This document shows positions 2,866 to 6,673 of a stretch of 42,044 bases of DNA, one piece after another. Position numbers and translations under genes: made by a program. The notes beneath the pieces are model-generated. The model saw only the letters and a list, made by a program, of their open reading frames with translations, was not told the DNA's origin and did no database searches. Source of the stretch: Candidatus Saccharimonadota bacterium. GTDB taxonomy: Bacteria; Patescibacteriota; Saccharimonadia; Saccharimonadales; Saccharimonadaceae. Numbering within the stretch: the stretch's first letter is position 1; each line of letters begins with the position of its first letter. The stretch covers positions 1-42,044 of the forward strand of contig JAEETK010000008.1 of NCBI GenBank assembly GCA_016290315.1. Reading direction: 5' to 3'.

Positions 2866-3937
2866 AACCTGCCTCGCTAGCCACTTTTTGGCCGCGCTGA
2901 GATAGCATCGCTTTTTTAAGTTCAGTTACATGTTCATTAGTTTCGCCTTTGCGGGTGACGACATAATAAGCAGAAAGGATAGGATATTTTTCATTTTGGA
3001 TAGTCTCGTAGGTTGGTTTAATTCCATTAACGGCGATATACTTTAGGTTTTCATTGTAATACATTGTATTTATATAGTAATAAAAGCCAAAGCCGATGGA
3101 ATTAATGCCATTATCGTAAGATGCGACATAGTCAACAATACCGGACATAGTGAGCTCAACAGATTCTTTAACGGTCGGAATTTTTACGGTTTTTCCCTTC
3201 ATAACAAGATTGTAGAGTCCAGTCTGAGAGCCAGAATTCTCTGGACGCTGGTAAGCAATAATGTCAGCATCGTTGCCGCCGAGATCTTTCCAGTTAGTGA
3301 TTTCACCCGTATAGATTTTGACGAGGTCATCAAATTTAATGCTATTGACTGGATTATCTTTATTGACAAAGAAAACGAAGCCCTCATTTACAACCTTAGT
3401 AACCTCAAGCTCGACATTCTTCTCTTTTGCAAGAGCAAGCTCATCTTTGCTTGGTTCCGTGACAACGATTAAGTCAGTCTCTTTATTAATTAGCTTGACA
3501 TAGCCGGGATGCGTATTGGAATATTCAATACCGAGATCTTTAGTAGTCTTGCCGGTGAAGTTCTTTACGAATGCGTCCGTGAGCGGTTGCGTGGCAAGAG
3601 AAGCATCAATGCGTGGGAGCGTGTCTTTGGTAAAGAGAATTTCGTCAGAATCAGCCTTAGGGCTCTCATCCTCTTTCGGTTGATTTTCTTTAACTATAAC
3701 AGTTTCTGGTTTTTGCGATAGTTTTATTGCAAAATACACACCAACGACAGAACCAATTGCTAGAATAATCAATAGTATGGGGATGAAGGGAAACTTTTTC
3801 TTTGGTTGGGGCGTGTCGGACGAGGATTCTTTCTTAGCTTCGTCGGATGGGGGCGTCCCTTTTTTTGGCTCCTCTGGAGTCTGTTCTGCATTGTCATCAA
3901 TTTTAATATCCTTGTCGGGATTATCTTCTTTGTTCAT
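2849..3937 (-). CDS. Membrane-anchored PstS-like substrate-binding protein
   Basis: 362 residues: a hydrophilic Pro/Lys/Glu-rich N-terminal tail (1-48), one membrane segment (about 50-71), then a periplasmic-binding-protein fold. The domain has features of PstS-like proteins: an early IDASLATQPLTDAFVKNF segment, a hinge segment with ITNWKDLGG, and an ENSGSQTG motif where PstS proteins have their phosphate-binding Arg/Ser/Gly/Thr. The usual lipobox is absent and a signal anchor replaces it. No ABC permease or ATPase genes are next to it, so a transport role is unproven; a receptor or scavenging role is as likely. The start has an AAGGA ribosome site and a short leader. Confidence 0.75.
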   Translation of the reverse strand: MNKEDNPDKDIKIDDNAEQTPEEPKKGTPPSDEAKKESSSDTPQPKKKFPFIPILLIILAIGSVVGVYFAIKLSQKPETVIVKENQPKEDESPKADSDEILFTKDTLPRIDASLATQPLTDAFVKNFTGKTTKDLGIEYSNTHPGYVKLINKETDLIVVTEPSKDELALAKEKNVELEVTKVVNEGFVFFVNKDNPVNSIKFDDLVKIYTGEITNWKDLGGNDADIIAYQRPENSGSQTGLYNLVMKGKTVKIPTVKESVELTMSGIVDYVASYDNGINSIGFGFYYYINTMYYNENLKYIAVNGIKPTYETIQNEKYPILSAYYVVTRKGETNEHVTELKKAMLSQRGQKVASEAGYVPAK

Positions 3938-4626: not shown

Positions 4627-5244
4627 CTATAACTTTACAACTACAGAATCGTCTTTTAGTTTTTTATCTTTTAGCCGCGGACTCTGTTCGTATATTAGCC
4701 GACAAACATGCGTGGCAGCCTCTTTGTCGCTGCTTAGACTAAAATGGCTCGTGCGATTGAAGCAATCCTCGACGACGAGCATTTTGCCGTCTGTGTTATG
4801 AGCATCGCCCGTTACATACGAATTCGTAATATCCTCCAGACGCATGATAGTACTAGGATTATCTAGGTCAACAACATACTTGTAGTTAAAGCGAAATCCA
4901 TCATGTTCGTACACGGCCTTGCCTTTGGCGACCTCATTGATAACTTCCGTTAATTGTTTTACGTCCTTAAAAACACGGAAAACTGGATCATTCATTACGA
5001 CACTATCGTTGATGGCTGGAGCAATAAAGCGTTTCCAAATAATAAAATAATCAACGATGAAGCTTGCTATTACGCCGATTGCTAGTAACACAATAGCAAC
5101 AGCCAGTTGCTTCATTGCACCTGGTACGGCGCAAAACGTGAGTAAAAATATCGACGGCATAATTAGCATCGTTAAGGCATACGAAAAGATTTCTTTCCGA
5201 TGGTTTGATCTGATTTTTTTAATAATATCTTGCTCGGTATACAT
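4627..5244 (-). CDS. Uncharacterised two-TM membrane protein
   Basis: 205 residues. Two adjacent hydrophobic helices (about 19-40 and 46-70) are followed by a cytoplasmic-type soluble region of about 130 residues with alternating strands and a final amphipathic helix, an arrangement reminiscent of bacterial PH-like domain proteins. That resemblance is only by pattern and I do not assign a function. The protein ends in a Lys-rich tail. The gene is a single unit with a leaderless-type promoter, directly downstream of the predicted non-coding RNA and convergent with the YrdC-family gene. Confidence 0.7.
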   Translation of the reverse strand: MYTEQDIIKKIRSNHRKEIFSYALTMLIMPSIFLLTFCAVPGAMKQLAVAIVLLAIGVIASFIVDYFIIWKRFIAPAINDSVVMNDPVFRVFKDVKQLTEVINEVAKGKAVYEHDGFRFNYKYVVDLDNPSTIMRLEDITNSYVTGDAHNTDGKMLVVEDCFNRTSHFSLSSDKEAATHVCRLIYEQSPRLKDKKLKDDSVVVKL

Positions 5245-5256: not shown

Positions 5257-5292
5257 TAACAAGTGCCCGTTAGCTACGATTGTCTTCGCCGT

Positions 5293-5322
5293 AAAAAGAA
5301 CCGAATTGCTTCGGTTCTTTTT
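5293..5322. terminator. Strong bidirectional intrinsic terminator
   Basis: A perfect 13-base inverted repeat (5293-5305 and 5310-5322) with a four-base loop has A5 on one flank and T5 on the other. It ends the predicted small RNA and any obg read-through on the minus strand. Confidence 0.85.
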
Positions 5323-5438
5323 CGCTGTTACGCGCCCACCCAGGGGCACATTGGTTTGTTTTAATCCGCTGTTTATTTTTGTTTCTAGTCTCCACACTTT
5401 CCACATTTTCAGTGGAACCCCGTGAAGCGTACCAGCTT
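5293..5438 (-). ncRNA. Candidate structured small RNA downstream of obg
   Basis: A promoter (5445-5473) predicts a start near 5438 and a perfect hairpin with a U tract ends the unit at 5293, giving about 145 nt. Reading the minus strand, bases 5436-5427 pair with 5333-5324 in nine of ten positions, closing the molecule. Inside, 5426-5422 pairs with 5395-5391 and, after a small internal loop of four G opposite AGT, 5417-5412 pairs perfectly with 5404-5399 around a seven-base loop. An A-rich stretch of about 40 bases follows, then a short G-C hairpin (5347-5344 with 5337-5334) abutting the closing helix. It lacks the SRP RNA tetraloop domain and any tmRNA or tRNA ends. A 67-codon frame crosses it, but that frame runs through the terminator hairpin and has no ribosome site. 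Confidence 0.6.
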
Positions 5439-5444
5439 GAATCT

Positions 5445-5473
5445 ATTAAAGCAATTTTAAGCATAAACGTCAA
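5445..5473 (-). promoter_or_regulatory. Promoter of the candidate small RNA
   Basis: TTGACG (5473-5468), a 17-base spacer, and TTTAAT (5450-5445) on the minus strand, entirely within the gap after obg. The predicted start coincides with the first base of the closing helix. Confidence 0.6.
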
Positions 5474-5509: not shown

Positions 5510-6673
5510 CTAATCGTCAAATTCGCTGAATTCATCTTCCGCGTCTGCCATCGAGTCAAGCGTAATAATCGTGTTGTGATCACCTTTTTGATAACGCTCG
5601 TGGCGTGGGCGATGCTTGCGCTCGGTTTGTTCTAGCGTGATTACTGGAATATCTTCAACTTCTTCTTCGACATCTTGCGCGGCTTCCACTTTGGATGCCT
5701 CGATTATTTGCCACAACTCACGCAATACTTCCGTAAGACCTTGATGGGCGGAAGCGGAGATTTTCATGATCTTCGCATTAGGATTTCGATCCAAAATGGA
5801 TTTCATCTGCATTCCGACAATTTCGTTATCAACGCCTTCAGTCTTGGTAAGAACGACTAGTTCTGGACGCTCGGCAAGCTCGGCAGAATAATTAGCAAGC
5901 TCTGCGCGGATATCCGCGTAGGCCTTGCCGGCGTCATCATTGTAGACATCTATCAGATGAAGTAGTACCTTCGTACGCTCAACATGGCGCAAGAAACGAT
6001 CGCCAAGGCCTTTACCTTCAGATGCACCCTCAATTAGCCCTGGAATATCTGCTATCAAAATACCATGGTCGTCGATTTTGGCAACACCGAGATTTGGCGT
6101 AATAGTAGTAAATGGATAATCGGCAATTTCGGGGGTAGCATTGCTGACTACGGAAAGAAAAGTAGACTTGCCGGCATTCGGAAAGCCGATTAGACCAACA
6201 TCGGCCAAGAGTTTTAGTTCTAACTCGGCATCGAAGGCCTCACCGGGATTACCGAGCTCGGCAATCTTTGGAACTTGGCGCGTACTGGAGCGAAAATGCC
6301 AGTTGCCATAACCGCCATCACCACCATGCGCAACAATTGCGCGCTCTTCGTCGCGAGTGAGATCGGCTACTACTTCACCGTCACGTTTAACAACTGTGCC
6401 AATTGGTACTTTTACGATTAAATCTTTGCCGGATTTGCCAGAGGATTTCTGACCAGAGCCAGCTTTGCCGTCTTCGGCGATTAGTTTCGGCTGGAAACGA
6501 AAGTCTATTAGAGTGTCGCAATCTTTACTGGCAACAAAAACCACGTCGCCACCCTTGCCACCATCACCACCGTCTGGGCCTCCCTTTGGAATATAGATTT
6601 CATGGCGAAAAGAAATTGCGCCATTCCCGCCCTTGCCGGCTTTAATATAAACTTTCGCTGTATCAACAAACAT
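5510..6673 (-). CDS. obg: Obg-family ribosome-associated GTPase
   Basis: 387 residues. The Gly-rich Obg fold occupies residues 1-158 (GGNGAISFRHE, GGPDGGDGGKGG). The G domain has G1 GFPNAGKST, a DYPFTT switch, G3 DIPGLIEGA and a G4 of TKTE in place of the usual NKxD. The family binds the 50S subunit and couples GTP to ribosome maturation and growth control. After the G domain there is only an acidic, low-complexity tail of about 60 residues and no recognisable OCT/TGS domain. The -10 box ends nine bases before the ATG, so the leader is at most a few bases. A separate small-RNA unit follows. Confidence 0.95.
   Translation of the reverse strand: MFVDTAKVYIKAGKGGNGAISFRHEIYIPKGGPDGGDGGKGGDVVFVASKDCDTLIDFRFQPKLIAEDGKAGSGQKSSGKSGKDLIVKVPIGTVVKRDGEVVADLTRDEERAIVAHGGDGGYGNWHFRSSTRQVPKIAELGNPGEAFDAELELKLLADVGLIGFPNAGKSTFLSVVSNATPEIADYPFTTITPNLGVAKIDDHGILIADIPGLIEGASEGKGLGDRFLRHVERTKVLLHLIDVYNDDAGKAYADIRAELANYSAELAERPELVVLTKTEGVDNEIVGMQMKSILDRNPNAKIMKISASAHQGLTEVLRELWQIIEASKVEAAQDVEEEVEDIPVITLEQTERKHRPRHERYQKGDHNTIITLDSMADAEDEFSEFDD

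Follow-up and report, generated by a model that had tools for sequence, protein, structure and literature searches.

A one-copy structured RNA gene of the Saccharibacteria that lies outside all Rfam families

RESULTS

An RNA gene lies downstream of obg

The RNA gene occupies positions 5473–5293 on the minus strand of the window (the whole stretch of DNA analysed, 42,044 nt in length), and all the features described here are on that strand. The gene upstream is obg (5510–6673, minus strand); that downstream (4627–5244, minus strand), read in the same direction as the RNA, codes for a protein of 205 aa whose N-terminal part has hydrophobic stretches. A 67-codon reading frame starting at a TTG (5270–5473, minus strand) overlaps the RNA gene. 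From 5′ to 3′, the features are arranged in the order TTGACG, TTTAAT, GCUGGUACGC, a 5′ stem-loop, an A-rich stretch, CCCC-U-GGGUGGGC, GCGUAACAGC and a terminator. Their coordinates, and the evidence behind each, are the following:

5468–5473, minus: −35 box, TTGACG (sequence; TTGACR recurs 5′ of homologues)
5445–5450, minus: −10 box, TTTAAT, separated from the −35 box by a 17-nt spacer (sequence; position kept in homologues)
5293–5438, minus: whole predicted transcript, about 146 nt (promoter, terminator and limits of conservation)
5427–5436, minus: closing helix P1, 5′ strand, GCUGGUACGC (covariation: both sides vary in 8 of the 9 pairs counted)
5390–5426, minus: 5′ stem-loop, UUCCAC/GUGGAA plus CUUCAC/GUGGAG (local fold, z = −3.6)
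5418–5421, minus: helix P2, 5′ strand, GGGG (covariation: both sides vary in 4 of 4 pairs; pairing in 98.9% of cells)
5371–5384, minus: A-rich box 1, AAACAAAAAUAAAC (count of AAA[CU]AAA in P2 loops)
5354–5362, minus: A-rich box 2, AAAACAAAC (counts of AAA[CU]AAA and of AAAACAAA)
5343–5346, minus: helix P2, 3′ strand, CCCC (covariation)
5334–5340, minus: near-invariant internal-loop motif, GGUGGGC (the same in all 90 aligned homologues)
5324–5333, minus: closing helix P1, 3′ strand, GCGUAACAGC (covariation)
5293–5322, minus: rho-independent terminator, 13-bp stem and U-tract (sequence and fold)

Judging from these signals, the gene is predicted to be transcribed from about 5438–5436, at an AAG that leads into the first bases of P1. 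A previous sequence-only reading of this DNA had placed the start at a closing helix with nine of its ten pairs formed, and this agrees with what was found: the helix begins at 5436 and GCUGGUACGC forms 9 of 10 pairs with GCGUAACAGC in the window. The promoter was absent from the output of a generic consensus promoter scan, and its −10 box has no A at position 2. When the predicted 146-nt transcript was folded, an energy of −50.0 kcal/mol was obtained (z = −4.85), a stability equalled by none of 200 shuffled sequences. The terminator is nearly symmetric (palindromic); a terminator is found on the plus strand as well, and it could serve transcripts arriving from both sides.

The locus matched no Rfam 15 family at the gathering threshold. 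The matches seen at relaxed thresholds (ncr1015, AgrB, H19_3 and MEG8_3) were weak, being terminator-driven or due to chance, and were rejected. The whole window (1–42,044) gave zero Rfam matches at the gathering threshold, tRNAs included.

The RNA is present in one copy in most members of the order

BLAST searches found the element in 41 of 45 congeneric genomes (E < 1e-30). Among these homologues the conserved block extended from just 5′ of P1 through the end of P1; the terminator hairpin was kept while its sequence was not, and the outer flanks were not conserved. A first covariance model (R1) revealed the RNA throughout its own family and in further families within the order. A second model (R2), built from 66 sequences and including only P1 and P2, detected it in 295 of the 393 genomes of the class that were sampled, with a single match in every genome listed. 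When 40 genomes from the other families of the order, chosen for their earlier hits, were searched again with laxer filters, exactly one copy was found in each of the 40. A third model (R3) was applied to 40 genomes picked mainly because they had previously been negative or unlisted, and recovered the RNA in 12 of them; 10 of these recoveries had E < 1e-4 (families f4, f6, f18, f24, f25, f27, f29, f31 and f37) and two were weak. With R3, the RNA was found neither in the five genomes searched that represent other orders within the class, nor in two from other classes, nor in some near-complete f1 genomes (G321, G341, G359 and G373) and several other families of the order. The negatives in f1 and in the other families imply that the RNA either is not strictly universal in the order or has diverged too far there.

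When a sample of 380 genomes from the phylum was searched, all credible matches fell within the RNA's own order (Saccharibacteria/TM7). A match in another class (G607; 27.5 bits, E = 0.017 per genome, 380 genomes) had no recognisable promoter and was attributed to chance. Loci sharing the 18-nt motif GGGTGGGCGCGYANCAGC were scored with R3: the 20 from Saccharibacteria all gave 54–85 bits, and the 60 from other phyla reached 22.5 bits at most. No copies were detected in plasmid or phage collections (BLAST), nor in IMG/VR (two motif patterns). The existence of the RNA family is near certain, and it is very highly probable that the gene is a one-copy structured RNA gene present in most members of the order and, credibly, nowhere outside it.

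Two helices are maintained by compensatory changes

Covariation was analysed in an alignment of 90 homologues (A4). Pair-keeping changes on both sides were observed at 12 of the 13 pairs of P1 and P2, and the covariation score was 0.378, compared with 0.123 in shuffled alignments (none of 500 reached the observed value) and at most 0.110 when the strands were slid. Covariation, which had been named as a check on the proposed helices, is strong in the closing helix, and none of the outcomes listed in the sequence-only reading as refuting it was observed. In P1, GCUGGUACGC/GCGUARCAGC was replaced by UCGUGCGC/GCGCACGA, by AAGCGUACGC/GCGUACGCUU (locus L085) or by CUUCGCGCA/UGCGCGAAG (locus L297), while in P2 GGGG/CCCC gave way to AGGG/CCCU, CGGG/CCCG, GCGGC/GCCGC, GGCUC/GAGCC or GGGUU/AACCC.

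The model to which A4 had been fitted included P1 and P2, which biases the alignment towards both helices; for this reason, a model-free check was performed that was anchored solely on GGUGGGC. The 8 nt located 3′ of this motif were fully complemented upstream in 39 of the 90 loci, while 6.3 were expected with the strand of another species and 1.3 with permuted letters. The 6 nt located 5′ of the motif were complemented upstream in 42 of 90, against 14.1 with swapped strands and 10.6 with permuted letters. This control mitigates the bias of A4 towards P1 and P2.

Two further elements of the sequence-only reading fared less well. One was a G-C hairpin abutting the closing helix (GUGCCC/GGGCGC), which can be drawn in the window but, in the 90 homologues, had 82.9% of its cells paired, showed zero compensatory changes and did no better than any shuffle; it was rejected as a conserved fold. 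Since the same CCCC pairs with GGGG in the covarying P2, P2 replaces this hairpin, which may form transiently in the RNA's own family. The other was a two-part internal stem-loop, which held up in the RNA's own family, where the 5′ local hairpin overlaps P2 or P1 and z lies mostly between −2 and −4, but was weak or missing across most of the order's remaining families. The outer part of the 5′ stem-loop, which overlaps P2 territory, may be an alternative or co-transcriptional fold. The idea of a conserved switch based on a mutually exclusive 5′ hairpin was discarded, the weakness of the hairpin in most other families leaving only a lineage-specific fold.

Conserved motifs occupy the internal loop and the P2 loop

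GGUGGGC lies between P2 and P1, as the 3′ strand of an asymmetric internal loop whose opposite strand is short and variable. A homologue found later, outside the 90 aligned (L299), has GGUGGGG instead. The A-rich stretch pointed out earlier in the window proved to be a general trait: AAA[CU]AAA occurs in the P2 loop of 87 of the 90 homologues, when about 10 would be expected after letter shuffling, and the commonest 8-mer of this loop, AAAACAAA, is found in 74 of the 90.

Promoter and terminator recur while the neighbouring genes change

Both the TTGACG-17-TTTAAT promoter and the terminator had been proposed from the window, and both recur. A promoter match of at least 9/12 was present in 66 of the 90 homologues (16 expected), and in 50 of those 66 the −10 box ended 7–8 nt 5′ of P1. 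A terminator was found at a distance of no more than 70 nt in 76 of the 90, compared with 8–12 in shuffles. The neighbours, named by reading their translated sequences, vary in identity and strand, and include obg, ligA (DNA ligase), an RRM protein, membrane proteins and tRNA genes. Location next to obg, part of the earlier description, applies to the RNA's own genus and to some of genus g7, in which obg lies upstream; elsewhere other genes take its place, so it is not a feature of the family. Since promoter spacing and terminator recur across families despite differing flanking genes, the RNA is best regarded as a stand-alone, trans-acting molecule. It shows the generic attributes of a stand-alone non-coding RNA, namely a promoter and a terminator of its own, covarying helices and no coding frame.

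A tRNA gene is commonly found near the RNA gene, often tRNA-Ala(GGC) (for example at L128, L129, L138, L144 and L147); 36 distinct tRNA-Ala(GGC) sequences are present in the retrieved flanks of homologous loci.

DISCUSSION

A new class of RNA

Among the cultured members of the Candidate Phyla Radiation, none are better studied than the Saccharibacteria, which are ultra-small and parasitise other bacteria as epibionts. Few single-copy RNAs are kept across a bacterial order (rRNA, tRNA, RNase P, tmRNA, 6S and SRP RNA), and an RNA gene conserved to this extent in genomes of ∼1 Mb is probably important to these organisms. The RNA is rated here as a new class; no Rfam family covers it. Considering also its wide conservation, the covariation of its closing helix and its recurring promoter and terminator, the initial view of the locus as an undescribed structured small RNA was well founded. 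No description of it was found in the open-access literature; most subscription journals lay outside that search and an earlier description is possible. The model described here (P1, P2, GGUGGGC and the A-rich boxes) suffices to seed an Rfam family and to annotate many genomes.

Resemblance to SRP RNA and to tmRNA had been denied in the sequence-only reading, and no Rfam model of either matched the locus. Like bacterial SRP RNA (RF00169, RF01854), the new RNA is a small hairpin RNA of housekeeping type, but it contains neither a GNRA-capped domain IV nor Ffh-binding loops, and the lineage has no Ffh gene. Neither RF00169 nor RF01854 matched the locus, searches of 11 and of 21 relatives with these models were equally negative, and for ffh (TIGR00959) none of 13 relatives reached the cut-off (there was one partial match of 16 bits), while all 14 control genomes did; identity with SRP RNA was rejected on these grounds. 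Loss of SRP has been published for many CPR bacteria (PMC8080830, PMC4508563). The lineage, with no detectable SRP and, by Rfam, no 6S RNA, nevertheless retains a structured RNA outside all Rfam families. The absence of ffh and SRP RNA (13 relatives searched for ffh) alongside a retained, unassigned RNA is a striking combination. As for tmRNA (RF00023), the new RNA shares with it an A-rich single-stranded stretch within a closed structure, but differs in having no tRNA-like domain and no tag frame, and RF00023 did not match the locus.

A possible mode of action

A constant promoter, a single copy, a fixed shape, two fixed unpaired motifs and shifting neighbours together point to a trans-acting RNA with an invariant partner. 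The transcript would start at the first bases of P1 and end at its own terminator, folding into P1, an asymmetric internal loop with GGUGGGC as its 3′ strand, and P2 capped by a large A-rich loop. In this arrangement the two helices would keep the GGUGGG strand presentable to a near-invariant partner, which could be a core protein, with RNA polymerase and ribosomal factors as examples, or a conserved RNA, for instance the 3′ ends of tRNAs. The A-rich boxes might provide a second contact or be used for minor-groove packing. The RNP nature of the molecule is proposed by analogy. The mechanism, a housekeeping or regulatory RNP-type RNA acting through GGUGGG, is the likeliest of those considered, but is put forward as a tentative suggestion that is on balance less probable than not. 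For the explanation as a whole, in which the gene and its mechanism are those of a housekeeping or global regulatory trans-acting RNP RNA, the chances appear to be even.

Could the RNA be a functional replacement of 6S RNA, which binds the RNA polymerase holoenzyme through a helix–bubble–helix structure? 6S RNA (RF00013) is likewise a structured, stand-alone RNA with a closing helix at the transcription start (predicted in the present case), and the arrangement P1–internal loop–P2 superficially resembles its helix–bubble–helix layout. Moreover, no 6S RNA above the Rfam cut-off was found in 21 relatives, a negative obtained with an insensitive model that rings in only 5 of 14 control genomes. 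However, the conserved core of the new RNA (75–125 nt, in which P2 is short and its loop A-rich) is much shorter than the 187-position 6S model and departs from the 6S layout of long stems and a large central bubble over ∼180 nt. The long terminal arm is absent, the invariant motif is on the 3′ strand alone, and the 5′ side of the bubble, being short and variable, offers no conserved start for a pRNA. RF00013 matched neither the locus nor eight homologous loci, even at relaxed thresholds. The earlier remark that the simple helix layout does not match the 6S rod agrees with these differences, and no member matched the Rfam model, a lack of matches weakened by the insensitivity of that model. 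A true 6S RNA may exist separately, and replacement of 6S is considered unlikely. In genome G046, a sub-threshold 6S-like RNA (L158:1501–1654, minus strand; 32.4 bits, cut-off 46.4) lies close to the gene for RNase P RNA, at a distance of a few hundred bases; it may be the true 6S RNA of the group, distinct from the new RNA.

A promoter and terminator of its own, together with short, exposed and conserved segments, would also suit an antisense sRNA that acts in trans and recognises mRNAs by base pairing through a GGUGGGC seed or through the A-rich loop. This is quite improbable, because the seed is identical across the order while mRNAs diverge widely, and because its complement is of ordinary frequency: in whole-genome counts, GCCCACC was neither enriched nor depleted relative to permutations (rank 26/42 and 24/42 in the two genomes).

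Complementarity to tRNA 3′ ends

Inspection of rRNA operons gave a specific lead. In both of the complete genomes examined (families f1 and f31), tRNA-Ile(GAU), tRNA-Val(GAC) and one tRNA-Leu (3 of 43–44 tRNAs) end in GCCCACC, which is exactly complementary to GGUGGGC. The sequence would allow the internal-loop GGUGGGC to pair with C75-C74-A73-C72-C71-C70-G69 of these tRNAs, so that the RNA might capture their 3′ ends and thereby sense or buffer them, by analogy with the GGU of RNase P L15 or the UGGN of T-boxes. Two RNA classes that bind tRNA ends carry their motif in an internal loop between helices, as the new RNA does. These binders (the T-box antiterminator and RNase P L15) have a GGU or UGG in a helix-flanked internal loop or bulge; unlike them, the new RNA has no stem I, specifier or catalytic core, and is not located 5′ of aminoacylation genes. 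No Rfam T-box matched the locus, and no gene is linked to the RNA. AGGGUGG of the new RNA coincides with the opening 7 nt of the T-box sequence AGGGUGGNACCGCG, which serves as a lead only. The tRNA complementarity is itself treated as a lead only, since the test was conceived after the match had been seen; the share of 7-mers that coincide with the 3′ end of some tRNA in each of the two genomes is 0.6% overall and 2.9% at the same G+C. Further arguments against it are that A76 would stay unpaired, the base 5′ of GGUGGGC being a G in 85 of 90 homologues, that L299 has altered the base facing G69, and that both sides are invariant and so offer no co-variation. Capture of tRNA 3′ ends is thus a doubtful reading, and only a small likelihood is granted to the broader notion of a new order-wide RNA class that docks tRNA 3′ ends (or another core RNA) in trans through a presented GGUGGG. 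Were such docking to occur, the RNA would be a translation-state sensor in reduced parasites, unlike 6S RNA, SRP RNA, tmRNA or T-boxes.

Pairing of GGUGGGC with rRNA was also considered and rejected: one of the operons inspected contains GCCCACC in its 23S region, but at no shared position, and the only shared target was the tRNA 3′ ends. At L305 (G199:C1:326000-333200), the 3′ end of tRNA-Ile occurs a second time in the 16S–23S spacer (AAAGTCCCTCATCGCCCACC; about position 3529 on the operon strand), ∼190 nt 3′ of the tRNA gene and outside any called tRNA. The matches to 23S rRNA in L305, L306 and L307 are interrupted or over-long (in L306, 3,242 bases for 2,925 positions), which suggests insertions or introns in these 23S genes.

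Neither a leader nor a coding sequence

Returning to the trans-acting RNA favoured here, the order of features in the window (promoter, structured RNA, terminator and a gene on the same strand) is also that of a cis-acting leader, a riboswitch or attenuator controlling the gene 3′ of the terminator. Across 87 loci, however, the downstream genes differ in identity and orientation, and many of them encode tRNAs or lie on the other strand; identity as a riboswitch or attenuator was rejected, and regulation in cis is very improbable. Least credible of all is a short protein-coding gene: the 67-codon frame from TTG, whose overlap with the RNA had been noticed earlier, is indeed open, but close relatives differ by frame-breaking lengths, which marks the frame as fortuitous and non-coding, the helix pairs carry compensatory substitutions, and conservation peaks in the helices and loop motifs in a manner that is not codon-like. 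RNA lengths in the RNA's own genus were 113, 114, 116, 119 and 120, with no multiple-of-three pattern, and over the 90 loci the lengths fell into the three remainders modulo 3 in the proportion 25/32/33.
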